Part shown: positions 12,301-49,375 of the stretch, piece by piece
Numbering within the stretch: position 1 is the first letter of the stretch
Layout: each line of letters starts with the position of its first letter
Source of the DNA: Verrucomicrobia bacterium Tous-C9LFEB
GTDB taxonomy: Bacteria > Verrucomicrobiota > Verrucomicrobiia > Methylacidiphilales > UBA1321
Direction of reading: 5' to 3'
Length of the DNA stretch: 64,000 nucleotides
NCBI GenBank assembly: GCA_002304345.1
Contig: NEUU01000008.1
Location: 62,001-126,000, forward strand
The notes under the pieces: model-generated
Told to the model about the DNA's origin: nothing
The model's input: only the letters and a program-made list of their open reading frames with translations
Database searches by the model: none
Position numbers and translations under genes: made by a program

Positions 12301-13838
12301 GGAAGCAAGGCATTACTATAGAGATTTTGATTTCCATTAAATTGAATTTTGATTTGATTACTTATAGTTCCAGTCTGCAATAAAGGTCGACTACTTGCAG
12401 ATGATTGACTCAGTATGTGCCCAGAAGAGCTCTGGTCTAGCCATTGAGTGACAGAGCCGCTGGATGTCGTCACGCCCATATCGGCCTTCAACCATAGGGA
12501 TAAAGCATCAGCTCCCGTAAGCGCCTTTTCTGTAAATGCGGCTTGGGACATTAATGCTCCACTTTGCACTTGGGCAGTAATCTGATCGTATTTGCCATTG
12601 ATCGCACCCGCTTGAAAATAAACCTGCGCACTACCTGAAGCATCTGTCCTGACCGTTACCGTCGAAAAAGTCTGCGGCGCACCGGTTCCGGTCGTGGCAA
12701 GCTTACCCGTGCCCGTCGTCACGGTGAATGTCACCGGGGCATTGATCAAGGCACTATTGGAGGCGTCCTTGACCTGGACGACCAACGGATTAGTCGCGAA
12801 GGAGGATAAGGCGGTAACCTGCCCATCTCCGCTCACCTTGGTCAAGGTCGGCAAGACATTGTTATAATAATCGGCTGGATAGGAATCCGAACCATCCGCA
12901 ATCCCATCTCCATCTGTATCGGAATTCTGAGGATCTGAACCAGCCTGATACTCCTGCCAATTTGTCAACCCATCCACGTCGCCGTCTGTATAGGTTTCGG
13001 GCAACAACCCAATTTCATTAATAGAGAGAACTCGATTATAGAGTCTCACTTCGTCAATCAAGCCCGCCCACCAATTCGCCCCATCAGCTTGACCCACTAC
13101 GAAATTTGCAACCGTAGAATCCACATCCCCACTAACCGTTCCTTGCGCCTCAAGCATCCCATCGACGTATACTTGGGCGAGATGATTGGTGTTCGCATAG
13201 GTCAAGGCAACATGATGCCAGCCGCCATTTTTTATAGAAAGGGGTGGTTGGCTGGCGCTTTGAAAAATTTGTGATGCAGCGGCCGGAGTATCGAATCGAG
13301 CACGAACTTGACCGTTGGTAGCTGTATCCACCCGCCACCCATAACCACTCGTATTCACCCACTGGGCAATGACCTGATTGTCATTGGCGCTCGCGGTGTT
13401 CACCCATACGGAAAAGGTGAAATTAGTCAGATTGTATGCCGAATTTGTCTGCGCCTGCAAATAACGCCCAACTCCATCCGTTTGAGCCGCCCCGTAAAAA
13501 AGGCCGTTGGTTGTCCAAGTATTGCTACCCGGCGAGATGACCGTCAAAGCCAGATTGTTCGAGCTGCGGTCTGAAGCGCTGATTCCGTTGGTCTCGTCGA
13601 GCTGCCACCAGCCGATCAGATTGGTTTCAGCATAGGCCCCCGCAGAAAATCCATGCGCCAGCTCCCAATCATCCGGCAACAAATTCTTATTGAGATCCAC
13701 TGCATATAGAAGAAAAGGAATAAGAAGCGAGAGAAGAACGGTAAAGAAAAGATGCCTCACCAATACGAATGATCGATTGCAAGACCCTCCGCGGTTACTC
13801 CGTGATACGACGCTGCCCAATCGTAGTCTCCCGTGCAT
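399..13838 (-). CDS. Giant modular exported protein with LamG, chitobiase-C, Big-1-like and RCC1 modules (4,479 aa)
   Basis: A hydrophobic export segment lies at about residues 26-46. An N-terminal LamG/concanavalin-A-like domain follows (about 70-275). Eleven further LamG-like modules each open with a variant of LSLWLKAD...V..W.DQSG and close with AEVL.YNR.L...ER..VE.YL; they start near residues 446, 713, 971, 1278, 1593, 2488, 2794, 3096, 3411, 3724 and 4049. Eight are followed by a chitobiase-C-terminal-like module (PDGG...YYT.DG.DPT...Y). Three Big-1-like Ig domains and several DxDxDG loops (DGLTNLQEYQ.GSDP) separate blocks, and seven RCC1 repeats occupy about 1980-2300. Known LamG and chitobiase-C modules bind glycans or act as spacers, so a surface adhesin or glycan-binding role is inferred. 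No catalytic or sorting domain is seen. The start is uncertain: TTG/GTG codons near residue 26 would give a tidier signal peptide. The protein ends abruptly at the beginning of what looks like another Ig domain. Confidence 0.85.
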   Translation of the reverse strand: MHGRLRLGSVVSRSNRGGSCNRSFVLVRHLFFTVLLSLLIPFLLYAVDLNKNLLPDDWELAHGFSAGAYAETNLIGWWQLDETNGISASDRSSNNLALTVISPGSNTWTTNGLFYGAAQTDGVGRYLQAQTNSAYNLTNFTFSVWVNTASANDNQVIAQWVNTSGYGWRVDTATNGQVRARFDTPAAASQIFQSASQPPLSIKNGGWHHVALTYANTNHLAQVYVDGMLEAQGTVSGDVDSTVANFVVGQADGANWWAGLIDEVRLYNRVLSINEIGLLPETYTDGDVDGLTNWQEYQAGSDPQNSDTDGDGIADGSDSYPADYYNNVLPTLTKVSGDGQVTALSSFATNPLVVQVKDASNSALINAPVTFTVTTGTGKLATTGTGAPQTFSTVTVRTDASGSAQVYFQAGAINGKYDQITAQVQSGALMSQAAFTEKALTGADALSLWLKADMGVTTSSGSVTQWLDQSSSGHILSQSSASSRPLLQTGTISNQIKIQFNGNQNLYSNALLPCNQDITVLVVSSVNNTTYTNDQYTLVLGTNQAGRMRGFGYSPSTLNFANWGGGVSFGKGPNPLYQTLTAYVLTRSSSLIQGYVSGVDVGTGNAGSGQALTTLSEGITAGCLNAASYYRPLYGTISEIVVFNRVLNSSELSSVSVYLADRYEIYHPNASWITQYSSAVQSEITRNQWNKEKADAYANYLQNNPTLEIPAAGLSLWMRADAGITIDANNNVSQWQDQSFASYLSAQATVTNSPKLVNDAQTGKAALSFSGNQWLNGTTTLPVNQDITIITLASNATPSVYSEICAIGVSPSATGRMRGYGYQNSMAQFDVYQAAVTTGSAPIAGRPVIASVLYSKSSGVVSFYMQGVANGAGGLSTSDVASGFIFGRAGWVGAYWNGTISEILVYNRQLSSSERLQAEVYLSNKYGVYHPNATWPLAYSSAVQSTITRNQWNKVEADAYVAMQQNNTGVMTNGLKAWFKADAGVTQSGGYVSSWTDQSGNYTATQSTANRQPAYIASAVNGKPGLRFSGGQCLYSGNTLGAGANADMTLIVVSSTTNPGAQQYAVFSGGSISSRGRSLGYLSSRQVFDTFNTSILGGASPTSNTFVIEQASINAALNNIIYYRNGLQTATASIAGVGMVTPGLMLGASPILNGFWQGDISEVLIYDHQLNEIERKQIETYLGNKYAISTPLPVIVPDGGIYRTAPSVTLYPPTGAVAYFTLDGSEPTLDSSLYAAPFAVSANATLKVKYYYGNGLFSGTATSDFIIDSNLPITTAGLNLWLRADRGVVSNGSNNVSLWKDQSGSGMHAGQTLSTAQPVLNLSGANSRPTVTLNGTSSYLQCPAGFADLTQGVTAFVVARPTSTGDWARFFDFGIGAGNNNIFLARSGSSQDFAVTLMNGGTSRNLYGIGILSQNTVQVLSITAEATSSGYIKMYKDSRFINQTVSQPLLNITKTTNYIGKSNWNNALFQGDIAEVLFYNRKLDDLERIQVDTYLGEKYGTPVYLPSVTPDGGIFKTPLTVSVSSLSGAIAYYTVDGTDPSLSSQSYSAPFVVSNSATVKVRYYYGASPCSGMASINFIIDPDLPIATSSLSLWLRADIGVVKDGANKVSVWKDQSGSGMHAAQTLTTAQPTLGTLGTYGKPTLTLDGATNFLQCPTGFADLTNGISAFVVMRSTAVKNYARFFDFGNGAGSNNIFMSRMGTSQDCLYQNMNGGSVRNYSGPGVIVQNAVRVLSVTDDATSSGLIKMYADGQIVGQAASQPLLNIAKIYNYIGKSNWGDPLYQGDIAEVLFYNRRLTDTERAEVERYLHRKYFDYDEDGLLDTWELQYFGQIGALPGADADLDGLTNLQEYQLGGNPVDYFNRGTATVTPTLTIVAGNNQIGSTSTFSLNPLLVQLSGGGITSWENAPVTFAVTTGSGLLATTNVGAPQTNTSLTVLADATGQARVYYLNPASPQVGFVQAVAGASLSVSFSEETVNYWRPGILAAGTTHALSVKKDGTLWAWGENSSGQLGVGGTTSHSSPVRVSSLSGVSLVSAGAGHTIALKDDRTVWTWGLNQQGQLGDGSITTRQTPVVVNGLTDVMAIAAGGNHSVALKSDGTVWAWGADKTSSPVQVSSVGTAIAIAAGTYHTAVVKNDGTVWTWEAASSAAPVQANGLTGAVSVAVGEGHYLALDSSGHVWTWGSNASGQLGDGTTSDHSTPAMISSFSNVKAIAAHGQHSLALKNDGTVWAWGSNSQGEVGDGTTTNRTTPIQVTGLPVIAAIAAGDQFSMAICFDGSVWCWGKNDVGQLGIGSTTGKTVAFMNPRFFVTTELDENGDGVLDSWEMTHFGTTTVNLQEDADGDGMSNLQEYLEGSNPHDYYSQGSRRIIPVLTLIGGNNQVGAASTPTDNPLAVRVTDSLTGEPLDNATVTFTTTRGAGKVSASGVLGAQGYPSLEVHADGSGYANVYYQFPGSETQSGIISAVAGLAPLNAEVSFTATLLPPPEVAGLCLWLRADTGVTSDANGKVSGWNDLSASQLNVGQGNTNAQPSLVPNYVNGQPVISFSQANQSLGRGGIAGMPAGGDNRSVFMVIQYESSGWGGGFWYGNGIHGVGGGYLLGVTASGSLSFDAVESAVDLGQPAVGQGFVLQESVLQGNYLYNYKNGENLRYLCRALGTWGMYADLSVGGTVQQKIAEVMAYNRALNDSERMEVESYLARRYNLCVPKLYAPKVTPDGGVYTSTKDVTLSSPLSEVVIRYTTDGSEPSESSATYTSSFTVAASQTVKAKVYKRNFLPSDTYTANFTITTSIPITTSSLSFWLKADGWVEKQGDNSVTRWVDMSGNGRHALSSGLTGKNPLWVNQSINNLPVLRFDGTDDHLLMDGYWPGGTELSLFVVTKGERYSSLLQAQTSGGYLGYPWTDPTHFNHVIVSSDGGTTSGVSSGLVLSQSNIGGVTYKSGDRITTYRNGGLVGDRAAGTAALPSERLLLGSFMGQAAFSSADVAEIITYNRKLTQAERQNIEAYLSLKYNIPMAAPVANPDGGTFKTAQNVTLTPPTNAIAYYTTDTTEPTTASSSYSGPISISANTTLKVKYIYTNGAASATATVDYVIDPGIIFTTSNLQLWLEADRGIELSSGNSVSRWKDQSGHGLHASQLTTTIGQPLLQASAVNGKPSVQFDGTTSYLQMLPGFADFTQGLSIFVVASPTSTGSSARLIDLGNGQDNHNIFLGRSGTSQSLLYSTRIGNAGTDTTGIYALSQNAYQVISVTDDGITGGVRKLYKNSNLWEQGGTQTISSLTRTLNYIGKSNWNDSLYQGAIAEILVYNRRLSDTERQRVESYLAGKYAVPIEAPQGSTGGGMYSGTQTVTFNPPAGATLYYTLDGSDPTTNSTSYSGPITITEGTSIKARYYYDTGAVSDIASLDYFIDPSLPITGNGLQLWLRADIGVEHENSRVTRWRDLSGNSMHAFQQDPANLPTWIPQETDGHATIRFDGSTQFLRCPAGFADFTQGLTSFVIARPTSTASYARFLDFGGIGGRDSNNLILRREGTSQQLNFNVLQGGSTRSIAAPDTLTQNSLQMLAATHDGTSTGSAVIYKNGAVAASGTTWNIPNVTRYFNYIGKSNWPEPLYQGDISEVILYNRLLTATERKSVELYLAAKYAVPLPPPGITPDGGTFKVAQTVTLSVPVGAVTYYTLDGTDPTYASTSYSSAITINSSATLKAKSFYSNGAFTEVATTGFVIDPDLSIPTTDLSLWLMADTAIQKDLAGSVSQWKDQSGNANHAFQSATASRPISSIDVTTGKPTMKFNGAGHWMRIADSATLRPASQITIIAAINKNSDTNKYDKILSRPYRTSGWSSPYYSYGFGEENNNQTSFWVATTGAVARSLVPTVYLPNPGPVIYGVSYDGANQKMFLNGTLSATQAATGNLDYTGAGTGTIDLALGALSPYNLTNYFGGEINEVLMYNRALSDTERQAVETYLAKKYNIGLAAPLLSPDGGTFKDTQTVTVLNTPPDSVTRYTLNGDTPTAASTSYSGPITITASTTLKARNFYNNGALSEISTADFVINPVLPVPSSGLQLWLKADTAVETAPGSSTVTRWKDQSAGSRHAVQYLSGVRPTLAAGAINGLPAIHFDGATQFFQCLPGFADFTSGMTAIVVARPTASASNAKFFDFGNGSPSNNLVLSRDATTAALRLDLYTGGSVLALHAADGINALQPGLFQILQADYDGTQIRLYNDGYLQAQGRKQGSGGAIPNITRTLNYIGKSNWPLDALYQGDIAEILLYNRKLTDAERLAIQTYLVNRYTIGARTHTPAISPAGGDYPTAQAVTITCADMPTAEIHYTLDGTDPTINSPTYTGALNINRTTTVKATAIANGQDPSPIATAQFYINDTNHDGIDNTWATQNGVTSATADNDLDGLTNLQEYQLGSDPNNADTNGDGIKDGLAAKTGIPVTGVNTTSDRDRDGVPDYLDAYPDDPTKSTGDPGDTNPPTIQLTQPTNAVPVP

Positions 13839-14306: not shown

Positions 14307-15518
14307 TCAGAACTGGTCCGATGATGTCGGCTGTTCTTGAGTATTGTGCTCGCCGTTGCGGAACTGGGCGCGGTACTGGCCAGGGGTTTTCTGGGTGACT
14401 TGGCGAAAGAGGACGTGAAGCCTCGGGGTGTTGGGAAAGTGGCACGCTTCGGCGATGGCCTCCAGCTTCATCTCGGTATTGCGAAGCAGGGATTGGACGT
14501 GCGCGATGCGGGCACGTTGGACTTCTCCAAGAATAGATTGCCCAAGCACCTCCGCAAAGCGTCTTTGCAAGCCGCTACGTGAGATGCCCGAGGCGCGCAC
14601 AACGTCACCCACATAAATATTCTCGGCTGCGTGGGTGCGAATATAGGCCACGGCGCGTTTCACAGAGGCTTCCTCGACGAATAGAGTATCTGTGGAGCGA
14701 CGCGCCGCCACTTCGACCACGGGTAGACGCATCATCGGTGATGTCGCCGATCCACCACGCATCAACCTGAGCAGCAGACGCGCTGCTTCCACCCCGATTT
14801 GCCACGAGGGCAGTTTGACACTCGATAATGGGATGTTTTCAAAGTCGACCCAGAATTTGTCATCGCCCACGCCGAGAATGGCCAACTCGTCCGGAATCGC
14901 GCGCCCGATTTCACGGGCGGCCTGGATGAGATGCAGCGCGAACGGGTCGAGTACGGCAAAGATTCCAGTCTTGGGTGGTAAGCGTTTCACCCAGTTGCGC
15001 ATGCGGGCGATAAGTCCGGGGCCGGATTCCTTGGTGAGTGGCCCGCTTGCTCCGGTCTGAAATTGAGCTCCAGCCGCTTTGTGATTGAGTACATCCCGAA
15101 ATCCACGAAAACGTTCCTCAGAAAACCGAGCTCCGCGCTGCTCCCAAACTGCGAATGAGGTGCATCCACATTTTAACAAATGTTCCGCAGCCAACCGCCC
15201 CACCTGCTCGTCGTCTTGTGTAACGACCGGGATACGAGGGGCATTGAGCACGTTGGAAACACTGACTGACGGCACGGACAGTCGCAGCAACTGATCTTCC
15301 GTGTCACTGCTGTGAACGACTGAGATAACGCCGTCGATATGCTGGCGTCGCACGATCTCGGCGATGCTCTGGCTGGCCTTGACGAATCCGTTGCCCACTT
15401 CAATTCGACCTTGGGAGAAGGCGAAGTGCCGCGCTCCCAACACGAGATTGCGGCCATATTCCCAGTCGGGCTGGCAGCAAATGAGAATGCGCCGGAAATT
15501 ATGGGGTTTCGACAACAT
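14307..15518 (-). CDS. XylR-type hybrid transcriptional regulator, cassette copy A
   Basis: A 403-residue regulator: residues about 10-275 form a LacI/periplasmic-binding-protein-like sensor domain (RRILICCQPDWEYGRNLVLG at the start; ELAILGVGDDKFW later). Residues about 285-385 form an AraC-type double helix-turn-helix (IYVGDVVRASGISRSGLQRR ... ACHFPNTPRLHVLFR). This architecture and length match E. coli XylR, in which sugar binding to the N-domain activates transcription. It is divergent from the aldolase gene at 15596 with a 77-bp shared control region carrying an inverted repeat, so it very probably controls cassette A. Its paralogue is at 22957-24141. The start codon has no Shine-Dalgarno. 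The ligand is unknown. Confidence 0.88.
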   Translation of the reverse strand: MLSKPHNFRRILICCQPDWEYGRNLVLGARHFAFSQGRIEVGNGFVKASQSIAEIVRRQHIDGVISVVHSSDTEDQLLRLSVPSVSVSNVLNAPRIPVVTQDDEQVGRLAAEHLLKCGCTSFAVWEQRGARFSEERFRGFRDVLNHKAAGAQFQTGASGPLTKESGPGLIARMRNWVKRLPPKTGIFAVLDPFALHLIQAAREIGRAIPDELAILGVGDDKFWVDFENIPLSSVKLPSWQIGVEAARLLLRLMRGGSATSPMMRLPVVEVAARRSTDTLFVEEASVKRAVAYIRTHAAENIYVGDVVRASGISRSGLQRRFAEVLGQSILGEVQRARIAHVQSLLRNTEMKLEAIAEACHFPNTPRLHVLFRQVTQKTPGQYRAQFRNGEHNTQEQPTSSDQF

Positions 15519-15544
15519 TAGGGTTGGGCAAAAATGAAACTATA

Positions 15545-15562
15545 TTTACCGTATTTGGTAAA
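15545..15562. promoter_or_regulatory. Putative XylR/AraC operator, cassette A
   Basis: TTTACC-GTATTT-GGTAAA, a perfect 6-bp inverted repeat with a 6-bp spacer, sits midway between the divergent regulator and aldolase starts. The corresponding site in cassette B (24164-24181) keeps the right arm and spacing, and the flank GTTGGGC(A/G)AAAAT(G/T)AAA is also conserved. Conservation between otherwise diverged control regions points to the binding site of the paired regulators. Confidence 0.55.
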
Positions 15563-15595
15563 GATTTCTTTCACTTGAATAACTACTCTGGAGTT

Positions 15596-16651
15596 ATGCC
15601 TGAAAGAGTTCTTGCTCCTGACACCATCCACAAACCTTTCCACCACCACGCCACGCTTGTCTCTAAAAGAGATTGCGGGAGTTGGCCAGTGATGCTGACG
15701 CCCTATGATGAAACGCTGAAAATCCATTGGAGCTCCTTTGAGCAGTTAGTGGAATGGTATCTGGGGGCCGGCAGTCAGGGGCTCTTTGCTTCGTGCCTTT
15801 CGAGCGATTTATTCCAGCTGACTCGAGAGGAACGCCGGGAGATCATCCGTCAGACATTGGTTTTGACTCGAGGCAGGATTCCCGTGATTGCTGCCGGCGC
15901 TTTCACCGAGAATGTGTCGTCAACGTGCGCCGTTTTGAATTCCACGGAAAAGCTCGCTGACGAGGTCAATCGCATCGCCGATCTTGGCGTGCGTGCCGTA
16001 GTGCTCTTAACCAATCAATTTGCCACGCCCACCGATCCCGATTCCATGTGGTTAAAATACATGGAGGCGACACTTTCCAAAATCCGGCCAAACATCCGGC
16101 TCGGGTTGTATGAATGTCCTGTGCCGTACAAACGATTGCTGACTCCCAAACTCGTGCAATGGGCTTCCGAAACGGGGCGGTTTTATTTCATTAAGGACAC
16201 TTGCTGCGATCTCGAACAGATTCGAGCCCGGTTACAAGCGATCAAATCAGTTCCGGATTGTCGGTTACGGCTCTATAATGCGCATACTGGGACGCTGTTC
16301 GACAGTCTGTTGGCCGGAGCCCACGGGTTTAGTGGAGTTGGCTCCAATGCTATTCCGCATCTCTACGCATGGCTCTGCCGAAATGCTCAAAGGCAACCGG
16401 ATGTGGCGCGCGAGCTTCAAGTTTTTCTCATCGAAAGCACTTCCGTGGTGGACATGGATTATCCTCAATCCGTACGGCTGTACCTGAATCAACATGGTTT
16501 CAATATCTCCCATGTGACGCGATTGACCGCTCAGAATAAGCTTCAACTGAACTCGGAAACGTTGACTGAATTTCATCGGAGCGTTGTTCAGTGGGAGCGA
16601 CGCCTGAAGTTGAACTCACCTTTTGAATTCATTTCTCCAATCTCCCTATGA
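15596..16651 (+). CDS. DapA/NanA-family pyruvate-type aldolase, cassette A
   Basis: A 351-residue TIM-barrel protein of the dihydrodipicolinate synthase/N-acetylneuraminate lyase family. The Schiff-base lysine is K200 in FIKDTCCD. The catalytic tyrosine is Y172 in GLYECPVPYKR, 28 residues earlier as in E. coli DapA (Y133/K161). The usual GxxGE loop reads GSQGLFASCLSS, so the family glutamate is missing, which argues against a true DapA. The start at 15596 gives the same numbering as the cassette B paralogue; 15524 is an upstream alternative. It is the first gene of cassette A, divergent from its regulator. Inferred role: cytoplasmic aldol cleavage of a 2-keto-3-deoxy sugar acid to pyruvate. 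Lyase versus hydro-lyase cannot be told from sequence. Confidence 0.82.
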   Translation: MPERVLAPDTIHKPFHHHATLVSKRDCGSWPVMLTPYDETLKIHWSSFEQLVEWYLGAGSQGLFASCLSSDLFQLTREERREIIRQTLVLTRGRIPVIAAGAFTENVSSTCAVLNSTEKLADEVNRIADLGVRAVVLLTNQFATPTDPDSMWLKYMEATLSKIRPNIRLGLYECPVPYKRLLTPKLVQWASETGRFYFIKDTCCDLEQIRARLQAIKSVPDCRLRLYNAHTGTLFDSLLAGAHGFSGVGSNAIPHLYAWLCRNAQRQPDVARELQVFLIESTSVVDMDYPQSVRLYLNQHGFNISHVTRLTAQNKLQLNSETLTEFHRSVVQWERRLKLNSPFEFISPISL

Positions 16652-16679
16652 GCTAACAACTCCTCCACAGTATCAGCCC

Positions 16680-17402
16680 ATGCGAAAAGCAACCATCACA
16701 CCTCTCAACGAAAAAGACGGGTTCACTCTTGCAGAGGTGATTCTCGTGGTTGCGATCGTGTGCCTTACTGCCGCGTTGGCACTGCCTTCCTTTAAACGCG
16801 CCTTGGCGACGGCCCGCGATGCGAAATGCGTTTCGAATCTGCGTCAAATCGGGGCGGCGATGCGGGTGTTTGCCGCCGATAACGAGGGCAAGCTTCCCGC
16901 CAAGTCCACCGCGGCGGATCGGACCTCCTGGCAGACGCGGTTACAGCCGTACATGGGAATGAACCAAAACAGGCAACTTCGTAAATCCTTCAACTGCCCG
17001 GAGGCGGCCCTGAAACCCGATATGAACGACGGCACGGACAATCGCACAACCTACGGTATGACAGTCTACAGCACGGTCTTTGAAAACTATCTCTCCCGCG
17101 TAGCCGATTCCCCCATCCTGCTGGTAGTGGACATGCCCACAGCCAACCTCGACGATCGTGGCCCCTGGAACGACGGGCGCACCTCTTACGAAGATCGCAA
17201 GGAGATGTTCCGACACAACAACCGCATGTCGCAGAACGGAGTCTTTTCCGACGGCCACGTCGAAGCGATGAGGCCCTCGCGCGCGGGAATGTTCCTGCCC
17301 GAAGGTTCGCCGAATGCGTGGTTGCCCGCCGGTTACTCTTACCGGTTTTCCGGCTACTGGATCACACCTTCCCCCGGACAACCGACCGACAACATCCGCT
17401 GA
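16680..17402 (+). CDS. Type II secretion/pseudopilin-like protein, cassette A
   Basis: 240 residues. The N-terminus has a prepilin peptidase site (DG-FTLAEV) with Glu at mature position 5, followed by a hydrophobic helix (VILVVAIVCLTAALALP). The C-terminal half carries R-H-N-N...GVFSDGHVE, a version of the H-X-DG motif found in the many DUF1559-type pseudopilins of Verrucomicrobiota and Planctomycetes. The end SYRFSGYWITPSP..PTDNIR is shared with the cassette B copy. It lies between aldolase and sialidase-like genes with short gaps (28 and 23 nt). Its role in a sugar cassette is unclear; it may form a periplasmic or surface fibre. The start at 16680 places the peptidase site at the usual distance; an in-frame ATG at 16623 overlaps the aldolase end. 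Confidence 0.8.
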   Translation: MRKATITPLNEKDGFTLAEVILVVAIVCLTAALALPSFKRALATARDAKCVSNLRQIGAAMRVFAADNEGKLPAKSTAADRTSWQTRLQPYMGMNQNRQLRKSFNCPEAALKPDMNDGTDNRTTYGMTVYSTVFENYLSRVADSPILLVVDMPTANLDDRGPWNDGRTSYEDRKEMFRHNNRMSQNGVFSDGHVEAMRPSRAGMFLPEGSPNAWLPAGYSYRFSGYWITPSPGQPTDNIR

Positions 17403-17425
17403 TTTCCACCTTTACGTCATTTACC

Positions 17426-18790
17426 ATGATCCGATTTTTTCTTCCCCTCGTAACAGTCCTCGTCGTTTCCCTTTCATCGGGCCACACCGCGCCCGATTCG
17501 TCGAGCCGCTTCCTTCTCTCTGGAAAGACCACCGCGCAGGGCACTCCAGAAGTTGGCATGTGGGCGGCGGGTATGCCGCAATCCGGTATTGAGGGCGCGG
17601 GCTTCCCGATTCTCAAACAAGCCCGGCATGCACTCATTTTCAAAGATGCGGTGGAGGCGGGAGGCTACAATCATCACTCCCAACTCTTCTATTGCTTGGG
17701 TGTTTTTTATGCCGCCTGGAGCAATCATCCGAAGGGCGAAGACGCCGCCGGTCAGCGAGTCCTTTTTTCCCAATCGAAGGACGGAGTCAACTGGACCAAG
17801 TGGGCCGAAGCGTTTCCGCCACCGAGCGAAGTGCGTGGATGGGGAGAAGGATTCGGCTGCTACGCCGTGGCCGGTTCCTGGCATGCCTATGAGGATTCCG
17901 TCTACGCGACGGCGCGCCTGTACAATTTCGTCGGATGGGAGAATGCGGACCGTACCAGTCGGACAGCCGAGCGCGACGAGAAGCATATTTTCCAGCGGTT
18001 CGAGCATATCGGACTGGTGGCCCGCAAGGTGGGATCGGACGGAACACTCGGCCCGATCTTCGCGCTCTCCACGCGCGTCAACCGTCTGACCAATCTGGAC
18101 TTTCCCTTTGTGAAGTACGGCACGCCGACATTTCAGCCCGTCGCCGATGCCATCAATCAAAGACAGCCCAAAACCCTCACCATTCAGGGGCCGTTGCCAG
18201 AGCCGGTCGACAATGCCCGGCTGGTAGAGCCCGCCGTCTATGAAACTCCTGACAAAACCCGGGTGGCCATCATTCGCGACGACAAGTTCTCCCACCGCAA
18301 ATACGTCAGTTTCTCCACAAATCAGGGAAGCTCCTGGTCCAAGGCCTTGCCGACGAACATCCCGGATTCGCCGTCTCTCGACATCGCGTTGCGTACGCCC
18401 GGTGGCGATATTTTGCTCATCGGCAATCATTGCGCGTCGGGATTTGATAATCCCCAAGATCCCAAAACCCCCTCAAATCCGTACCACTACGACCGCGATA
18501 CACTCGATGTTGCCGTCAGCACCAACGGCTACCTCTTCACACACACCGTTGTCCTGAGGACTGGAGTGCAAGCGTGGCGCGTGCCGCGCAAGGCGGTTCG
18601 CGGTCGTGGCGGCGGGCCGCAATATCCCTCTGCTCTCATCATGGGAGATAAACTCTACGTCATGTACTCGTTCGGCAAAGAAGACATCTGGTGTTCGAGC
18701 GTGCCGTTGTCCGATGTACTCCAGCCCAGCGCCGCGACCGCCGCTCCCGCCGAAATTTCCTCACCCACCCCCACAGCAATCACCAACTGA
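17426..18790 (+). CDS. Exported sialidase-superfamily (BNR/Asp-box) protein, cassette A
   Basis: 454 residues with a signal peptide (MIRFFLPLVTVLVVSLSSG). Asp-box-like motifs SQSKDGVNW and STNQGSSW and the C-terminal block PQYPSALI.GDKLYVMYSFG are typical of six-bladed sialidase/BNR_2 propellers. A conserved core NHPKGEDAAGQR is shared with the cassette B copy. The canonical FRIP motif of GH33 was not found, so the substrate may be another 2-keto sugar acid or a different glycan. Translation of the next gene begins 10 nt downstream. Inferred location: periplasm or cell surface; inferred job: releasing the sugar that the symporter and aldolase use. Confidence 0.75.
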   Translation: MIRFFLPLVTVLVVSLSSGHTAPDSSSRFLLSGKTTAQGTPEVGMWAAGMPQSGIEGAGFPILKQARHALIFKDAVEAGGYNHHSQLFYCLGVFYAAWSNHPKGEDAAGQRVLFSQSKDGVNWTKWAEAFPPPSEVRGWGEGFGCYAVAGSWHAYEDSVYATARLYNFVGWENADRTSRTAERDEKHIFQRFEHIGLVARKVGSDGTLGPIFALSTRVNRLTNLDFPFVKYGTPTFQPVADAINQRQPKTLTIQGPLPEPVDNARLVEPAVYETPDKTRVAIIRDDKFSHRKYVSFSTNQGSSWSKALPTNIPDSPSLDIALRTPGGDILLIGNHCASGFDNPQDPKTPSNPYHYDRDTLDVAVSTNGYLFTHTVVLRTGVQAWRVPRKAVRGRGGGPQYPSALIMGDKLYVMYSFGKEDIWCSSVPLSDVLQPSAATAAPAEISSPTPTAITN

Positions 18791-18800
18791 ATACACTACC

Positions 18801-20654
18801 ATGAAACACTACACATTCTGGATTATGGCGCTTCTCGTCATGATCGGCGGCATTATAGCAACCCCGGCCGCCACTTGGGTTGGCAATGGCGATGCCAACA
18901 ATGGAGGAAATTGGTCAACCACGACTAACTGGGACGGCTCAGTTCCCGGGGCGACGGACACCGCGACACTCGGCAATGTCACCACCGGCACGCGCACCGT
19001 CGTCTATGACTCTGCGTCTTCCGGGTTTCTCACAAGCCTCCAACTGGAGCAAAGCACCGCCAGTGCCATCAATAAGCTCAGCATTCAGCGCGATTTGACT
19101 CTTTCTTCCGAGTTGGTAATCGGAGCCTCTGCCGGAAGCTCCATTGTACGGCTGGGTGGCGCAGCCTCCAAGGTGACATTACAAGTGGGAGACACCGCTT
19201 CCAGTCCCGGTATCACTTTGAACTCCGGTGGCACGTTCATCCTCGATTTTATCAGCGGAGGCGTGACCGGAAGCGATTTGAAATCCAATGTAACGATCAA
19301 CACTGGCGGTGTTTTTCAGGTGGGCTCTTCCGAGAGCGGGTCCAGCTCCAGCACGGCGCAGGCAACGGTGGTACGCTCCATGACGCTTTCCGGTGGGCAG
19401 ATGGTGCTGGATACGACCGATTACTCGGCAATTCGCCTGTCCATTCAAGGTAACTTCACCGCGACGGGAGGATCGATTTCGACCACCAGCGGCAGCGGCG
19501 GCAACCTCTATTTCGACGGGACAACTGTCTCCCTGGGCAACACCTCCATCGGTTCTGTCAATTTCACGATGCGCGGCTCCGGCAACAAAACACTCAGTAT
19601 CGACCGGGCTCTCAACCGGCTTTATCTCATCGGACGTAACAGCGCTGATCTCACCGTCAATGTGAGCGCCCCTTCGACGACTGGACTTTATTTTACGCAT
19701 GAATCGGTCGGTAAGACCGTCACGATGCAATTGACCTCCGACCTTGCCCTCGCCACCAACGGCGTGCAACCGCAGGCCACCGGAGGAGCCACAAGCGGAA
19801 CGACGACTTACGGAATCGACGCAAACGGCTTCACCCTCGATCTCACCGCTGGCCAGAGCTACGGCAAGTGGACTCCCAACAAGGGCAGCGAAACTACCGC
19901 CGCATGGGAACTCACCACCAGCGCCGCCAACGGACGCATCAAGGCCACGGCGTTTGATTTCAGCACAACCAATGTCACCACGCATGTGGGCGCTGGATTG
20001 ATTCTGGAAGCGGTGTCGGGTTCAAACGCGACAACAAAGGTGAATAATCTCTCGGGAACCGGAGTCATCGAGACGAGCTCCGTCTTTCGTTTCAATCCAA
20101 CCAGCTCGGCGTCGACATCGACTCTGCAATCGAACCGCGACATTGGTATTCTTGAAATCAAAAAGGGCACCTTGAGCATCGCCGGAACCACCGACTTTTC
20201 GGCCAAGGGTGGCATCGCCATATCCGCCGGAGCCACGTTAAACCTCGACCAACGCATGGTCAGTACGTCCCTCTTCACCTTTGGCGTCAGCGGGACGGAT
20301 AAAGGAGTGCTCACGGGTGGAAATGCCGCGGTCTCGCTGGCCGATGCCCGCATTGTCTTCGACCTTTCCGGCACCATCGTGGCGGGAACCTATGACGTAT
20401 TCGACACAATTTCCGGCATTACGGGAACACCATCGTCCGTAGCCATCAGCGGCAATCAGACACTGGAACTCACCCGCTCCGGCACCACCTGGTCCGGATC
20501 GTCTGGTGGCTTCGATTACACGTTCTCCACTGACACAGGTCTCTTTCAGATCGCGGCAGTACCCGAACCCCGCACCAAGCATGCCTTGCTCATCGGTAGC
20601 CTGCTACTGCTCGTCACCGGAGTCTGGAGACAGCATCGCCACCACCGAGCTTGA
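18801..20654 (+). CDS. PEP-CTERM surface protein with autotransporter-like repeats, cassette A
   Basis: 617 residues. A signal peptide (FWIMALLVMIGGIIATPAA) is followed by W.GNGDANNGGNWSTTTNWD, the start typical of autotransporter-associated beta-strand repeat proteins, then a long Ser/Thr/Gly-rich beta-helix-like body. The C-terminus is a PEP-CTERM signal: VPEP, a hydrophobic helix (ALLIGSLLLLVTGVW) and a basic tail (RQHRHHRA). Family knowledge: such tails are recognised by exosortase (EpsH) and the protein is released or anchored at the outer surface. No exosortase is present in this window. The paralogue at 27365 is 619 residues. Role is inferred as surface matrix or glycan capture. Confidence 0.8.
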   Translation: MKHYTFWIMALLVMIGGIIATPAATWVGNGDANNGGNWSTTTNWDGSVPGATDTATLGNVTTGTRTVVYDSASSGFLTSLQLEQSTASAINKLSIQRDLTLSSELVIGASAGSSIVRLGGAASKVTLQVGDTASSPGITLNSGGTFILDFISGGVTGSDLKSNVTINTGGVFQVGSSESGSSSSTAQATVVRSMTLSGGQMVLDTTDYSAIRLSIQGNFTATGGSISTTSGSGGNLYFDGTTVSLGNTSIGSVNFTMRGSGNKTLSIDRALNRLYLIGRNSADLTVNVSAPSTTGLYFTHESVGKTVTMQLTSDLALATNGVQPQATGGATSGTTTYGIDANGFTLDLTAGQSYGKWTPNKGSETTAAWELTTSAANGRIKATAFDFSTTNVTTHVGAGLILEAVSGSNATTKVNNLSGTGVIETSSVFRFNPTSSASTSTLQSNRDIGILEIKKGTLSIAGTTDFSAKGGIAISAGATLNLDQRMVSTSLFTFGVSGTDKGVLTGGNAAVSLADARIVFDLSGTIVAGTYDVFDTISGITGTPSSVAISGNQTLELTRSGTTWSGSSGGFDYTFSTDTGLFQIAAVPEPRTKHALLIGSLLLLVTGVWRQHRHHRA

Positions 20655-20676
20655 CCTTCTTTCAAAAGATCTTCCC

Positions 20677-22212
20677 ATGCCCGCAAGCACGATCATAGAT
20701 GCACCGAGAAGTGCGGCGTCCACTTCAAACGACCGCATTCCGCTGGCACAAAAGATTGCGTTCGCAGCAGGCATGAACACAGAGTATGTCGCGACCGGCT
20801 TGATGACAGGCATTCTGTGGATGCCCTTTTTCAATATCGGTCTGGGCATGAGTCCCGTTGTCCTGGGGGGCATCCTGATGTTTCTTCGGTTCTGGGAAGC
20901 GGTGATTGACCCGTTCATGGGAAATCTGTCCGATAATACGCGCACGCGGATTGGCCGAAGACGCCCCTATCTGTTTGTCGGGGCCGCAATCACCGCCCTG
21001 TTGTATCCGCTGTTCTGGTACATGCCGAGCAGCTTATCCGATATTGGAAAAATCGTGTACCTCTCCATCGCTGGAGTCGCCTTCTTTACCGCCTTCACGG
21101 TCTGGTCGATACCGTACTACGGAATGCAGTTGGAGCTGACGCCCAATTATGACGAGCGCACGCGGCTCACCGGCTGGATGACCTTCTTTAGCAAACTCTC
21201 ATATCTGGCCGGAGGTTGGTTGCTGTCGTCGGTCATGCTCATCGGCATGGTCGTTTCGGGCAAAACTCCCGAACACGCGTCCGGTTGGCTGGAGCAGCAG
21301 GCGCTGACGCTCCTGCAACCATTGATCGTGCTTTTCCCGGTTGGCAGCCAGTCGGAAAAACCGATCGTCGTCGGCATGCAAATTCTCTGCCCCTTCATCG
21401 CACTGGGCATTTTGCTGTTCGGACTACTGCCCGCGCTGTTCGTCCAGGAGCGTTACTATGCGACCGAAGCGAGCTTCCAGAAAAAAGAGTCCTTCTGGCA
21501 AAGTATCCAGGAGTCCATACAGTGTCGCCCGCTTTGGTCGCTCAATGCGGCGGCTTTTTTCCTGCTTATGGGTACAAGCTCCGTGGCAACACTAGGGCAG
21601 TATGTGAATTTTTACTATGCCAGCCAGGGCGATCTTGCGCTCGGCACGTGGATTGCCGGATGGAAGGGAACGCTTGTGGTATTAGTGGGCGTCAGCACGA
21701 TCCCGCTGTTCATCTGGCTGGGAGAGCGTTTCGACAAGCGAACGATTGTCTTGTACATGCTGACCTGCTGCATGCTCGGGCATTTGACGAATTATTTCCT
21801 GATGACGCCGGAGCATCCCTATTGGCAAATTCTTTCCGGAACGTTCGAATCGTGTTCGCTGTCGGCAGTGTGGATTTTCCTGCCTTCCATGAAAGCTGAC
21901 GTAGCCGACTGGGATGAATTACATACCTCGCGACGCAGGGAGGGTGCCATCAATGCTTTTCACTATTGGTTCATCAAGATGTCGCTCACCCTCTCCATGG
22001 GATTGGGTGGCCTGCTCTTGGCATGGTCTGGATTTGACAGCCGGCATTCTGTGCAGCCAGAGATCGTCACCCACCGGATGTTTCACATTTACCTGATCCT
22101 GCCGCTGCTGTTCTGGGGCGTGGCCCTGCTGGCAACGTGGCGTTACCCGATCACGCGATCCCAAGCGACGGAAACCCGCCAGCAACTCGAAGCGCGCCGG
22201 GGAAAACTCTGA
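20677..22212 (+). CDS. GPH-family sugar:cation symporter (MFS), cassette A
   Basis: 511 residues with about 12 membrane helices. The signature DPFMGNLSDNTRTRIGRRRP matches the loop 2-3 motif of glycoside-pentoside-hexuronide (MelB/XynB-like) carriers, and LTPNYDERTRLTGW and PSMKADVADWDE are further family blocks. The start at 20677 gives an N-terminus collinear with the cassette B copy (DRIP..QK.AFAAG). It lies 22 nt behind the PEP-CTERM gene. Inferred job: inner-membrane uptake of the mono- or oligosaccharide acid liberated outside. Hexuronides are known GPH substrates; the specific substrate is not predictable. Confidence 0.85.
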   Translation: MPASTIIDAPRSAASTSNDRIPLAQKIAFAAGMNTEYVATGLMTGILWMPFFNIGLGMSPVVLGGILMFLRFWEAVIDPFMGNLSDNTRTRIGRRRPYLFVGAAITALLYPLFWYMPSSLSDIGKIVYLSIAGVAFFTAFTVWSIPYYGMQLELTPNYDERTRLTGWMTFFSKLSYLAGGWLLSSVMLIGMVVSGKTPEHASGWLEQQALTLLQPLIVLFPVGSQSEKPIVVGMQILCPFIALGILLFGLLPALFVQERYYATEASFQKKESFWQSIQESIQCRPLWSLNAAAFFLLMGTSSVATLGQYVNFYYASQGDLALGTWIAGWKGTLVVLVGVSTIPLFIWLGERFDKRTIVLYMLTCCMLGHLTNYFLMTPEHPYWQILSGTFESCSLSAVWIFLPSMKADVADWDELHTSRRREGAINAFHYWFIKMSLTLSMGLGGLLLAWSGFDSRHSVQPEIVTHRMFHIYLILPLLFWGVALLATWRYPITRSQATETRQQLEARRGKL

Positions 22213-22227
22213 TCACCTATTTTCTTT

Positions 22228-22944
22228 ATGCCAAATCAACCTCTCCTACTGCGCTTTCAAATTTTGATGCTCTTCGCTTTTTCCGTCTGGGGGCTTCCAG
22301 CCCAGACCGTGACAAACCTGGCAGCCATTCCTGCCACCCGCGATCCGTGGATGGAACAGCACCAGAACTACAACGTCCTCGCAGCCAAAGGAAACATTGA
22401 CCTGCTCTTCATCGGCGACTCCATCACGCAGGGCTGGCGCGGCAATGGCACACCCGTCTGGGACAAATACTTTGCATCGAAACAGGCAGCTAACTTCGGC
22501 ATCAGCGGCGATCGCACGGAGAATCTGCTCTGGCGGCTCCAAAACGGCAATCTCAACGGCATTCGTCCCAAAGCCGTAGTGGTACTGATCGGCACCAATA
22601 ACATTTGGCGAGACAAGCCGGAACAAGTCGCCGAGGCCATCGGCCTGATCGTACAGGAAATCAAGACACGCTGCCCGGCCGGTCGTGTATTGCTTCTCGG
22701 CCTCTTTCCCCGAGGAGACGCTCCGAACACGCCCACTCGCAAAAAAATCGCCCAAGTCAACGCAATCATCTCCAACCTCCACGACGGCAAGCGAGTATTC
22801 TACCTGGACATTGGCGAAAAGTTCACGAATCCCGAAGGAGCTATCAGTAAGGACATCATGTTCGACTTTACGCACCTGACGGCGGCCGGTTACCAAGTCT
22901 GGGCCGACGCCATCGAACCGAAGCTCGATGAGTTGATGCGCTAA
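22228..22944 (+). CDS. Exported SGNH/GDSL-type esterase (PAF-acetylhydrolase-like)
   Basis: 238 residues with a signal peptide ending near WGLPAQT. All SGNH blocks are visible: GDSITQGW (nucleophile S65), NFGISGDRTENLLWR, VVLIGTNN, and the catalytic dyad D213/H216 in DFTHLTAAGY. Such secreted PAF-AH-like SGNH proteins often remove acetyl groups from sugars. Placed directly after the symporter (15 nt), it is the last gene of cassette A and has no counterpart in cassette B. Inferred role: O-deacetylation of the substrate glycan or of a released sugar acid, for example an O-acetylated sialic acid. It converges on the copy B regulator with only 12 nt between stop codons. Confidence 0.85.
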   Translation: MPNQPLLLRFQILMLFAFSVWGLPAQTVTNLAAIPATRDPWMEQHQNYNVLAAKGNIDLLFIGDSITQGWRGNGTPVWDKYFASKQAANFGISGDRTENLLWRLQNGNLNGIRPKAVVVLIGTNNIWRDKPEQVAEAIGLIVQEIKTRCPAGRVLLLGLFPRGDAPNTPTRKKIAQVNAIISNLHDGKRVFYLDIGEKFTNPEGAISKDIMFDFTHLTAAGYQVWADAIEPKLDELMR

Positions 22945-22956
22945 TTCCGACAATCC

Positions 22957-24141
22957 TCACCGCCGATGGAACACCGCTCGATATTCACCCGGCGTCTGTC
23001 CGGTGTAACGGCGGAACAAAATATGCAGGCATGGCGTACTGGGGAAATTACAGGCTGCGGAAATGTCGGTCATCTTCATGTCGGTGGTTCTTAATAACGT
23101 TTTCACCCGCTCGATTCTCCCCCGCTGAATTTCCGCCAGAATAGAACGTCCCAGGATGACTGCAAAGCGTCGCTGCAACCCACTTCGGGAAACTCCAGCG
23201 GCCCGCGCCACATCCGCAACATAGATATTCTCTCCAGCATGAGTGCGAATGAAGGCCACCGCCTTGGCTACAGCCTCGTCTTTTGTATATAGAATATCCG
23301 TCGATTGCCGTTTGGCCACTTCGGTCACGGGCAGATATCGCTGCGGTGGAGTGGAACCGTACGGTTTCTTTGACTGCATCAACTCCTCCAACAGAGTCAC
23401 CGCTTCCACTCCGATTTGCCATGCCGGCAATTTCACACTTGAGAGGGGTATACTCTCGAAGTCGGTCCAGAATTGATCGTCCCCCGCCCCCAACACCGCC
23501 AGATCTTCCGGGACATCCCGGCCCAACTCCCGGGCCGCCTGCATCAAGTGGAGCGCAAAGGGATCGAATACCGCGAAAACTCCAGTTTGGGGCGGCAGCT
23601 TCTTGAGCCATTTTTGCATCTTCACGAGCAGCCTCGCGCTCTCCTCCTTGGGTCCGCTCCCTCCAGCGATACAGGTTGCCTGCGGCATACACCGCTCCAG
23701 TTCCAAGCGAAATCCCCGAATGCGCTGCAAGGAGAAGCGTTCCCCCAAGTCTTCCCAATACGCAAAAGTCGTACACCCGCATGCAAGCAAATGCTCGGCG
23801 GCCAAACGCCCGACCGCCATGTCATCCTGCGTGACGAGGGGCAGTCGTACGGTATTGAGGATGTTGGAGACATTGACCACGGGCACGGGCAGCCTCAGCA
23901 TTTCGCTTTCCATTTTCGGTGTCGTGACGCGGGCGATGATCCCGTCGATGGATTGCTGTCTCACCAACTTTGCCAATGCGGTTCCCTTGTTATGGGTACC
24001 GGGACCAATCTGAAATCTTCCCGTGGTGAAGGCGTAATGTCTCGCCCCCAAAACCAACTCCCTTCCATATTCCCAATCAGTTTCGACCATCATCAGAATT
24101 CGGTGATGTCTCTTTTTCGTCGAAAGACTGGGCAATTTCAT
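22957..24141 (-). CDS. XylR-type hybrid transcriptional regulator, cassette copy B
   Basis: 394 residues with the same architecture as the regulator at 14307-15518: a periplasmic-binding-like sensor (HHRILMMVETDWEYGRELVLG; DLAVLGAGDDQFW) and an AraC double helix-turn-helix (IYVADVARAAGVSRSGLQRR; ACNFPSTPCLHILFRRYTGQ). The recognition helices of the two paralogues are nearly identical (SRSGLQRRFA), while the sensor domains differ more. This suggests shared or overlapping DNA sites with possibly different ligands. It is divergent from the aldolase gene at 24215, with a 73-bp control region. Confidence 0.88.
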   Translation of the reverse strand: MKLPSLSTKKRHHRILMMVETDWEYGRELVLGARHYAFTTGRFQIGPGTHNKGTALAKLVRQQSIDGIIARVTTPKMESEMLRLPVPVVNVSNILNTVRLPLVTQDDMAVGRLAAEHLLACGCTTFAYWEDLGERFSLQRIRGFRLELERCMPQATCIAGGSGPKEESARLLVKMQKWLKKLPPQTGVFAVFDPFALHLMQAARELGRDVPEDLAVLGAGDDQFWTDFESIPLSSVKLPAWQIGVEAVTLLEELMQSKKPYGSTPPQRYLPVTEVAKRQSTDILYTKDEAVAKAVAFIRTHAGENIYVADVARAAGVSRSGLQRRFAVILGRSILAEIQRGRIERVKTLLRTTDMKMTDISAACNFPSTPCLHILFRRYTGQTPGEYRAVFHRR

Positions 24142-24163
24142 GTTGGGCGAAAATTAAATATTA

Positions 24164-24181
24164 ATTAGCAGATTAGGTAAA
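24164..24181. promoter_or_regulatory. Putative XylR/AraC operator, cassette B
   Basis: ATTAGC-AGATTA-GGTAAA occupies the same place relative to the regulator start as TTTACC-GTATTT-GGTAAA in cassette A. The right arm GGTAAA and the 18-bp length are kept and the left arm is degenerate. The adjacent flank GTTGGGCGAAAATTAAA is also conserved. Confidence 0.5.
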
Positions 24182-24214
24182 TACATTTATCGGAGCCTAT
24201 GGAATACTCATCTC

Positions 24215-25279
24215 ATGCAAAACGGCGCGCCCACAAGCATTCCCGAGACAGATCGAGCCAAGAATGTCCGTCTCAACATGCCCTCCACCCATCGCCCCGG
24301 CTCCTGGCCGGTGATGATCACTCCCTTTGACTCGGGTAAACGGATCGACTGGGTTGCCTTGGATGCACTCATCGAATGGTACATTGCGGCAGGTAGCCAG
24401 GGGTTATTTGCGACCTGCCTTTCCAGCGAGTTGTTTCACCTCGACGCCGACGAGCGATCAGCGCTGGTTCGTCGTGTTTTGAGCCGCGCGTCTACGCGTC
24501 TGCCGGTGATTGCAGCCGGAGCCTTTGCGCCCAATACCACGGCGACGGACGCGACCGGCACTCCCACCCAAATTGCAGATGCCGCCCACCGATTAGCTGA
24601 TACAGGAATCGAATCGGTCATTTTTTTAACCAACCAGTTTGCGGCTCCTGACGACAATGACGCAACGCTCTTGACCAATCTGGAAGCGACCCTGGCCCGT
24701 CTCGATCCTGCGATTCCGGTCGGTCTCTACGAATGTCCTGTCCCCTATAAACGTCTACTCACGCCGGCCCTGACGGAATGGGCTGCGTGCACGGGGAGGT
24801 TCCGGTTCCTGAAGGATACCTGCTGCGATCTTTCCCAGATCAAGGCAAAGCTCTCGGCGTTGCACGGATCGCCGCTTCGCTTTTACAACGCCAACACCCC
24901 CACGCTTCTAGCCAGTCTTCAAGCTGGTGGACACGGCTTCAGCGGGATTGGAGCCAACGCCATGCCGCATCTTTACACCTGGCATTGCGAGCACTTTGCC
25001 AAAGAGCCCGGGACCGCCCGCGAGCTTCAGCAATTTCTCACCGACAGCTCCGCCGCCGTCGACACCCATTATCCACACTCCGTGAAGGCCTATCTCCATT
25101 TGAATGGCCTACCAATACAGCCGGTCTCGCGCGTGTCGCAGAATGAACTGACTCGCGCCGACAACGAGCGACTCCGGCGGTTTCACGTCGAGGTGATTGA
25201 TTGGGAAAAGCGGCTTGGATTGGCCTCACCTTTTGAGGCTCTAGCCAACGATTGCCGGTCTTTCTGCGGTATTGGATAG
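24215..25279 (+). CDS. DapA/NanA-family pyruvate-type aldolase, cassette B
   Basis: 354 residues. It carries the same catalytic pair as the cassette A enzyme: Y172 in GLYECPVPYKR and K200 in FLKDTCCDLSQIKAKL. The GSQGLFATCLSSELF loop again lacks the family glutamate. Counted by eye, 43 of 76 residues are identical to copy A over the segment from GSWPVM to PVIAAGAF. The start at 24215 is chosen because it makes the active-site numbering match copy A; an internal ATG at 24278 is possible. It is the first gene of cassette B. Inferred reaction: pyruvate-forming cleavage of a 2-keto-3-deoxy sugar acid in the cytoplasm. Confidence 0.82.
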   Translation: MQNGAPTSIPETDRAKNVRLNMPSTHRPGSWPVMITPFDSGKRIDWVALDALIEWYIAAGSQGLFATCLSSELFHLDADERSALVRRVLSRASTRLPVIAAGAFAPNTTATDATGTPTQIADAAHRLADTGIESVIFLTNQFAAPDDNDATLLTNLEATLARLDPAIPVGLYECPVPYKRLLTPALTEWAACTGRFRFLKDTCCDLSQIKAKLSALHGSPLRFYNANTPTLLASLQAGGHGFSGIGANAMPHLYTWHCEHFAKEPGTARELQQFLTDSSAAVDTHYPHSVKAYLHLNGLPIQPVSRVSQNELTRADNERLRRFHVEVIDWEKRLGLASPFEALANDCRSFCGIG

Positions 25280-25300
25280 AAATCTGCAACACCGGAAGCC

Positions 25301-26035
25301 ATGATCGCCATCATGAATATATTGCCACACACTAACCTTCGAAGTGCTTTCGCACTTATCGAAGTACTAGTCGTCACGGTCTGCATCGGCGTTCTTGTGG
25401 CCTTACTTTTTCCTGCGCTTCAGAAAGGCCGCTCCGCTGCCCGCGATGCCCGGTGTCTTGCCAATTTGCGTCAACTGGCAACCGCAAGCCTCTCCTTTGC
25501 CTCCGACAATGGCGGCAAGGTTCCCGACCGCGCGCGGACTCCAGATTGGGTTAGCTGGCAGATTCAATTGTCGCCTTATTTGAATCTGAGCCTGAGCCAG
25601 ATTCGCACCCGCATCGCCTGTCCCGCCGCAGTTCCCCAGCCCCAACCACCACCGAAGGGGGACGACAGTACTTACGGAATTTCGGTCTACATGGCCAACC
25701 ATCCCGATATCCAGCGATCTCTTTTCATCCTCGCCACACCCGTACTCCTCTTTGTGGATAAGCCTACTTCAAACACCGACAATTGGGGGCCTTGGAATGA
25801 CCGGCGCCTGGCGGACACCCTGTCCCTACGACAAGCCATGTTCCGGCATGGAAACGGAACCTGCACGCAGGGGGTCTTCACCGACGGTCACGCCGAAACC
25901 ATGAAACCTTCGCGAGCGGGAATATTTGCGCCGCTGGACGAAGGGAACGTCTGGGTGCCAAGGGGCATTTCCTACCGCTTCTCCGGATACTTTATCACCC
26001 CCTCCCCAACCATCCCTACCGATGACATCCGCTAA
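25301..26035 (+). CDS. Pseudopilin-like protein, cassette B
   Basis: 244 residues. The prepilin-type N-terminus reads SA-FALIEVLVV: Ala instead of the usual Gly at -1, with Glu5 kept. A hydrophobic helix follows (VCIGVLVALLFPAL). The C-terminal half repeats the motif of the copy A protein (RHGNG...GVFTDGHAE) and the end SYRFSGYFITPSPTIPTDDIR. It starts 21 nt after the aldolase gene with GGAAG close to the ATG, and its stop is 7 nt before the sialidase-like start. The Ala at -1 may slow or prevent peptidase cleavage. Confidence 0.78.
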   Translation: MIAIMNILPHTNLRSAFALIEVLVVTVCIGVLVALLFPALQKGRSAARDARCLANLRQLATASLSFASDNGGKVPDRARTPDWVSWQIQLSPYLNLSLSQIRTRIACPAAVPQPQPPPKGDDSTYGISVYMANHPDIQRSLFILATPVLLFVDKPTSNTDNWGPWNDRRLADTLSLRQAMFRHGNGTCTQGVFTDGHAETMKPSRAGIFAPLDEGNVWVPRGISYRFSGYFITPSPTIPTDDIR

Positions 26036-26042
26036 TCCGCCT

Positions 26043-29224: not shown

Positions 29225-29273
29225 ACAGAGAAAAAAAACGACATCATTCCTGCCAAAACAAGCCTCTCCGCGA

Positions 29274-41938: not shown

Positions 41939-42007
41939 ATCGTCCGATCCACAATCGGCATCATGCCGGGACGGTCCAATTCCTACTCGGCAGCTTCAGG
42001 AAACATC

Positions 42008-43333: not shown

Positions 43334-43335
43334 CC

Positions 43336-44160: not shown

Positions 44161-44169
44161 AGATTTTTT

Positions 44170-49295: not shown

Positions 49296-49375
49296 CTATC
49301 GGGTCGGGTCTTAATTAGTCCAAGGGACTTACTCAGCTTAGGATAGCTCCATGAATGCAACATGGAGTATTGGTA

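Follow-up and report, generated by a model that had tools for sequence, protein, structure and literature searches.

Two predicted ulosonic acid scavenging cassettes in a verrucomicrobial genome and a candidate Dha pathway in the GH143 operons of its relatives

Which sugar acid is scavenged by a gene cluster that combines a sialidase-like protein with an aldolase of the NanA/DapA type? This question is raised by a stretch of 64,000 nucleotides (positions 62,001 to 126,000 of contig NEUU01000008.1; hereafter the window) from the 4.28-Mb draft genome (89.67% complete) of Verrucomicrobia bacterium Tous-C9LFEB, whose close named relatives belong to the Verrucomicrobiota. A preliminary description, made from the sequence alone, had proposed a pathway for a 2-keto-3-deoxy sugar acid (ulosonic acid): N-acetylneuraminic acid (Neu5Ac), 3-deoxy-D-manno-oct-2-ulosonic acid (Kdo) or 3-deoxy-D-lyxo-hept-2-ulosaric acid (Dha). 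In this study, we observed two tandem cassettes with the same gene order (14307-22944 and 22957-30854), and we lean, with moderate confidence, towards reading them as paralogous inducible cassettes that scavenge an ulosonic acid. Each consists of a divergent LacI/AraC-type regulator, a DHDPS-family aldolase, a pseudopilin-like protein, an exported sialidase-fold protein, a PEP-CTERM protein and a GPH symporter; an SGNH esterase is encoded in cassette 1 and absent from cassette 2. The genes named in the preliminary description were all found, together with their Pfam matches, while the regulator, the pseudopilin-like and PEP-CTERM genes and the duplication of the whole block had been omitted from it. 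No third copy of the sialidase-fold protein was found by protein search of the host genome. The features are as follows (identities are those of copy 2 to copy 1):

14307-15518, minus strand: regulator 1, LacI-type ligand domain and AraC helix-turn-helix (Pfam Peripla_BP_3 1.3e-24, HTH_18 1.9e-15); homologue in the related loci L037-L040
15545-15562, no strand: candidate operator, perfect palindrome with 6-bp arms (TTTACC-N6-GGTAAA) between regulator 1 and aldolase 1
15596-16651, plus strand: aldolase 1, DHDPS family (Pfam DHDPS 1.4e-16)
16680-17402, plus strand: pseudopilin-like protein 1; start chosen within the open reading frame (ORF) 16623-17402
17426-18790, plus strand: predicted exported sialidase-fold protein 1 (by Pfam and structure model), GH143 sister family by tree and residues
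18801-20654, plus strand: PEP-CTERM surface protein 1; start chosen within ORF 18606-20654
20677-22212, plus strand: GPH-type symporter 1 (MFS_2 3.4e-56); start chosen within ORF 20506-22212
22228-22944, plus strand: predicted exported SGNH/GDSL esterase, cassette 1 only (Pfam Lipase_GDSL_2 5.9e-31)
22957-24141, minus strand: regulator 2 (58% identity)
24164-24181, no strand: degenerate candidate operator, copy of the palindrome in cassette 2 with 2 mismatches
24215-25279, plus strand: aldolase 2, DHDPS family by Pfam, alignment and predicted structure (52% identity)
25301-26035, plus strand: pseudopilin-like protein 2 (43% identity)
26043-27368, plus strand: predicted exported sialidase-fold protein 2 (62% identity; BNR_2 4.4e-13)
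27365-29224, plus strand: PEP-CTERM surface protein 2 (57% identity)
29274-30854, plus strand: GPH-type symporter 2 (48% identity; MFS_2 4.2e-59)

Pfam assigned BNR_2 (1.5e-12) and a BT_1020-like propeller (1.5e-10) to the product of 17426-18790. The nearest solved fold to its structure model, which was built from 28 sequences (mean predicted local distance difference test score, pLDDT, 87.7), is formed by residues 27-412 of BT_1020 (Z 31.2, root-mean-square deviation 3.2, 334 residues aligned), followed by GH33 sialidases with Z 25.0 or lower; Foldseek matched the model to BT_1020 at 2.7e-16. Structure prediction, which had been proposed as a check on the pathway, thus returned a predicted fold of the sialidase type, and at the level of fold the check did not refute the pathway. 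BT_1020 was also the sole solved relative up to E 1 in a single-sequence search (1.7e-7) and came first in a profile search (1.1e-38), with sialidases next at 5e-12. In both sequence and fold, the solved protein nearest to the window protein is therefore the N-terminal domain of BT_1020 (PDB 5mqr), which we take to be the founder enzyme of GH143 from Bacteroides thetaiotaomicron. It has YNH, E105, R357, Y400 and a KED motif in common with the window proteins, whereas these lack its GH142 domain. A 2019 paper reports that GH143 was set up to hold a B. thetaiotaomicron enzyme which removes Dha from rhamnogalacturonan II (RG-II) and combines a five-fold propeller with a Tyr-Glu pair (PMC6811678), and an entry in a table from 2020 lists the family as Dha hydrolase (PMC7761036). 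With the GH33/GH181 sialidases the window proteins share the propeller fold, but identity is about 11-16% and the Arg of the FRIP motif is missing.

Although Pfam names BT_1020, we rejected membership of the window proteins in GH143. PF24067, the BT_1020 model of 236 positions, matched them over 48-101 and 48-100 only (54 and 53 positions; 41.5 and 31.6 bits, above the Pfam cut-off of 27), while the 12 best places in 387 genomes of the phylum matched at least about 220 of its positions. Phylogenetic analysis of 36 rows placed eight GH143 rows in a clade of their own (support 100/100), and ten rows, including the window proteins, formed its sister clade (support 92/87, under the 95/80 mark). 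Because the PF24067 match is partial and the tree position separate, the window proteins are placed outside GH143; by tree and residues they are a separate sister family, and a candidate new glycosidase family beside GH143.

E105, W123, G206, E268, G301, R357, Y400 and K418 are among those identical in all 28 homologues, and R284 is kept in 27 of them. In sequence alignments, E268 and R284 match the Glu (EP) and the second Arg of a solved Akkermansia sialidase, and Y400, R357 and E105 match BT_1020. The columns of E268 and R284 hold Ala and Lys in all eight GH143 rows, as against Glu and Arg in nine of nine window-type rows. A FRIP motif is absent from the window proteins, as noted before, and its place reads YNHH (residues 81-84). 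If the residue roles known from GH33 sialidases apply, the mechanism would probably be sialidase-like and retaining: the nucleophile would be Tyr400, with Glu268 in support, Arg284 and Arg357 would bind the carboxylate, and Glu105/Asp106 would lie near the leaving group.

The window aldolases have the fold of NanA in common with that enzyme, and their Schiff-base Lys and Tyr align with K165 and Y137 of Escherichia coli NanA, which agrees with the conserved Tyr/Lys reported earlier. Lys165, Tyr137 and Thr167 of NanA are each kept in 13 of 13 window-type rows. However, a CLSSE-type motif replaces GSTGE of NanA, and the columns of D191, E192 and S208, presumably side-chain contacts of NanA, read T, G/P and V/I. 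Against the NCBIfam nanA model aldolase 1 reached 15.9 bits (cut-off 382) and aldolase 2 was not listed; the dapA scores likewise stay far under the cut-off. The fold ranking of the aldolase model (mean pLDDT 91.8) does not separate the families and was rejected as a guide to the substrate.

Linkage of the two genes is conserved. Among the scanned named genomes, four close relatives (L037-L040) show 54-67% identity in the best segment. L037 and L038 carry the same block of regulator, aldolase, pseudopilin, sialidase-like, PEP-CTERM and GPH genes, and L039 and L040 keep the regulator, the aldolase and the sialidase-like gene in a different order. Window-type aldolases (E <=1e-30) were found at 24 places, distributed over 11 of the 387 genomes of the phylum. 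A gene matching the sialidase profile at E 1e-60 or better lies in the surrounding stretch at 11 of these 24 places, where 1.12 were expected from the BNR_2 gene numbers of the genomes (tail probability 2.6e-9, related genomes taken as independent). In this count, the two window places and G174 (= L040) were read directly and two places are on contigs of about 6.4 kb; the threshold leaves out L074, with a weaker neighbour at 1.2e-22. The uptake gene varies: GPH in the window, L037 and L038, SSF in 20 of 25 fetched loci of other genomes with a window-type aldolase.

In the reading that we favour, the sialidase-fold protein, predicted from sequence to be exported, would act as an exo-glycosidase that frees an ulosonic acid from a polymer. 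A hydrophobic signal-like stretch at the N-terminus, judged by eye, is present in the sialidase-like proteins and the esterase and not in the aldolases. The GPH symporter would take up the released acid, and the cytosolic DHDPS-family enzyme would form a Schiff base through its Lys, aided by the Tyr, and cleave the acid to pyruvate and an aldose. A sensor of the sugar could be the divergent LacI/AraC-type protein, with its binding site between the divergent genes. Catalysis, substrate and regulation are predictions here, and the earlier route, from release through uptake to aldol cleavage, is supported at the level of class, with a conserved linkage of hydrolase and aldolase. Its O-deacetylation step is the weakest part: the SGNH esterase gene exists, but in one of the two window cassettes and outside the L037/L038 block.

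Several points weigh against this interpretation. The missing FRIP Arg is part of the carboxylate triad of GH33. By the threshold used, 13 of the 24 aldolase places are without a sialidase-profile gene, and the window-type aldolase family therefore has other uses. The tail probabilities of linkage treat related genomes as independent. Compared with the aldolase model, DapA, NanA, YagE and 4-hydroxy-2-oxoglutarate aldolase differ by no more than about 2 Z units. The cassette encodes neither a kinase nor an isomerase for the aldose product. Finally, a DUF1537, NanE or AGE family recorded as absent might have been missed, since the genome is only 89.67% complete.

Within the class of 2-keto-3-deoxy sugar acids, which holds as a class, the substrate can be narrowed by exclusion. 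NanE was not found above the cut-off in any of 11 genomes, the window genome included, in agreement with the earlier remark on nanE, and AGE epimerase and DUF1537 (PF07005) gave no match in the window genome. Neu5Ac by the known routes is thus unlikely, because NanE and AGE are missing and the NanA side-chain residues are absent from the aldolase. A substrate that yields a neutral sugar (Kdo giving arabinose, or 3-deoxy-D-glycero-D-galacto-non-2-ulosonic acid, Kdn, giving mannose) is more likely than Neu5Ac, and Dha is possible. Since a DUF1537 match is lacking, the substrate is probably an ulosonic acid other than Dha, and Kdo or Kdn would fit best. The far neighbours in the window were rejected as a guide to the substrate; no pectin set was seen among the ten proteins scanned.

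The most interesting result came from the relatives, where the true GH143 genes lie in operons that form a candidate complete Dha pathway. Strong PF24067 matches (E <=1e-43) were found at 15 places in 12 of the 387 genomes. At 12 of the 15, a DHDPS-family gene is located no more than 7 kb from GH143 (0.22 expected); a DUF1537 kinase is nearby at 11, and both are present at 10. Two places have neither partner (G386:C4 and G179:C101), one has the kinase only (G386:C6, a 290-residue frame) and two have the aldolase only (G130:C116 and G171:C215). A compact set of SSF transporter, iron-containing alcohol dehydrogenase (Fe-ADH), DHDPS, DUF1537, PdxA and GH143 genes is present in five of seven fetched GH143 loci and not in L081 and L090; the GH143 protein of L089 matches BT_1020 over 575 residues (2e-118). 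The compact operons are:

L082, 4647-12671
L083, 8628-16330
L084, 3457-11375
L085, 7127-14868
L089, 3748-11300

Aldol cleavage of Dha gives pyruvate and a four-carbon aldehyde acid, and after reduction the centres of the latter are those of D-threonate, by Fischer bookkeeping. By the same reasoning Kdo gives D-arabinose and Neu5Ac gives N-acetylmannosamine. PdxA-type enzymes oxidise D-threonate 4-phosphate to dihydroxyacetone phosphate (DHAP). Because the centres of the reduced C4 product of Dha correspond to D-threonate, the downstream genes of these operons fit Dha and not Kdo or Neu5Ac. The gene content predicts a route from Dha to pyruvate and a threuronate-type semialdehyde, then to D-threonate, D-threonate 4-phosphate and DHAP, a concrete and testable proposal. 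The known D-threonate pathway, with DtnK of the DUF1537 family and a PdxA-type dehydrogenase, is represented in the GH143 operons, whereas the window genome has no DUF1537 match; there, Dha use by the D-threonate route is not supported. In the literature searched, which did not include the founding RG-II paper, we found no paper stating a Dha route via D-threonate. The portions of articles returned by that search contained no description of bacterial use of Kdo and Dha from RG-II after release, and the passage retrieved for lyxo-heptulosaric acid with aldolase describes no catabolic route. Pairing of 'Kdo aldolase' with rhamnogalacturonan was not found either, nor was the combination with Verrucomicrobia.

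Could the window substrate itself be Dha from RG-II, as for BT_1020, with the aldolase yielding pyruvate and a four-carbon semialdehyde acid processed by enzymes encoded elsewhere? The preliminary description had hinted at Dha, and this hint finds partial support in BT_1020, to which the window protein is closest among solved proteins in both sequence and fold. The strong linkage of true GH143 genes to DHDPS aldolases and the sister position of the two families (92/87) speak for it as well. The support is under the 95/80 mark, however, and the window proteins fall outside GH143. The Ala and Lys of GH143 at the E268/R284 columns, the lack of PF07005 in the window genome, and the GH143-linked aldolases, which belong to another subfamily (GTTGE in place of CLSSE in most rows), argue in the same direction. 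We therefore regard Dha as an unlikely substrate of the window cassettes, albeit the best of the alternatives.

Somewhat more doubtful is the proposal that the sialidase-fold protein is a lyase, a phosphorylase, another glycosidase or a binding protein, and that the aldolase acts on a 2-keto-3-deoxy acid supplied by lyases or dehydratases. Beta-propellers of other activities do match the fold, for example beta-1,2-mannan phosphorylases at about 1e-7, and the aldolase places without a sialidase-profile neighbour fit this proposal; L076, which has a sialidase-profile gene, also carries a heparinase-like gene and a GH38 gene. Nevertheless, the matches to BT_1020 and GH33 are far stronger than those to other propellers, and Glu, Tyr and Arg residues are invariant in all 28 homologues. 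Classical scavenging of Neu5Ac is improbable and was rejected as the principal explanation: the sialidase fold would suit it, as would the neighbourhoods of the relatives L039, L040 and L062, with their SASA genes, SSF transporters and sulfatases, but the lack of NanE and AGE, the unconserved D191, E192 and S208, the low nanA score and the missing FRIP stand against it.

It is tempting to extend the ulosonic acid reading of the cassettes to a wider scheme, which we offer tentatively and with slightly more doubt than belief. Ulosonic acids beyond Neu5Ac would be catabolised in Verrucomicrobiota by DHDPS aldolases paired with hydrolases from different families of the sialidase superfamily, and the downstream genes would tell the substrate. 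The GH143 operons would convert Dha to DHAP, and the window cassettes, with a new glycosidase family, would serve another ulosonic acid (Kdo or Kdn).

Regulation was approached through the candidate operator. TTTACC-N6-GGTAAA at 15545-15562 is the sole site with 0 mismatches in the window; with up to 2 mismatches there are three sites in the whole window, two of them in the cassettes (15545 and 24164), and a similar site is present in L037 and L038. The start of aldolase 1 at 15596 was preferred over a TTG at 15524 because the latter would place the candidate operator inside the gene. The symporters scored 148.3 and 126.2 bits against NCBIfam gph TIGR00792, under its cut-off of 231.35, and are well above the cut-off for MFS_2.

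In pseudopilin-like protein 1, N_methyl and DUF1559 stay under the Pfam cut-off and a prepilin cleavage domain is above it. The pseudopilin-like genes at 16680-17402 and 25301-26035, which lie inside the sugar cassettes, carry a C-terminal DGH segment. PEP-CTERM protein 1, the only copy scanned, has no Pfam match and ends in VPEP, a hydrophobic stretch and a basic tail; its gene is kept at the same position in L037 and L038.

Among the related loci, sister-family sialidase-like genes of L039, L040 and L062 lie near sulfatases, SASA (sialate-esterase-type) esterases, SSF transporters and GH110- or GH36-like genes. These neighbours suggest a sulfated glycan, and the sulfatases and SASA esterases in these clusters suggest that the GH143 sister family is used on more than one polymer. 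The neighbours of L037 (a citrate-type transporter, sulfite reductase and DUF4886) were uninformative and were rejected as a substrate clue. In L069 (G092:C1, 2959405-2962693), the neighbour of a window-type aldolase is an AGE-type epimerase, and no sialidase-profile gene is present; the locus may belong to another nonulosonic acid route. Elsewhere in the window, an RND efflux set (41963-47295), Kdp potassium transport genes (49355-56453) and a GH9 glycosidase (57147-59633) were observed. On the minus strand, 399-13838 forms one uninterrupted open frame (4479 residues) with many similar lectin-like and repeat-like segments, judged by eye, and probably encodes a giant exported protein.

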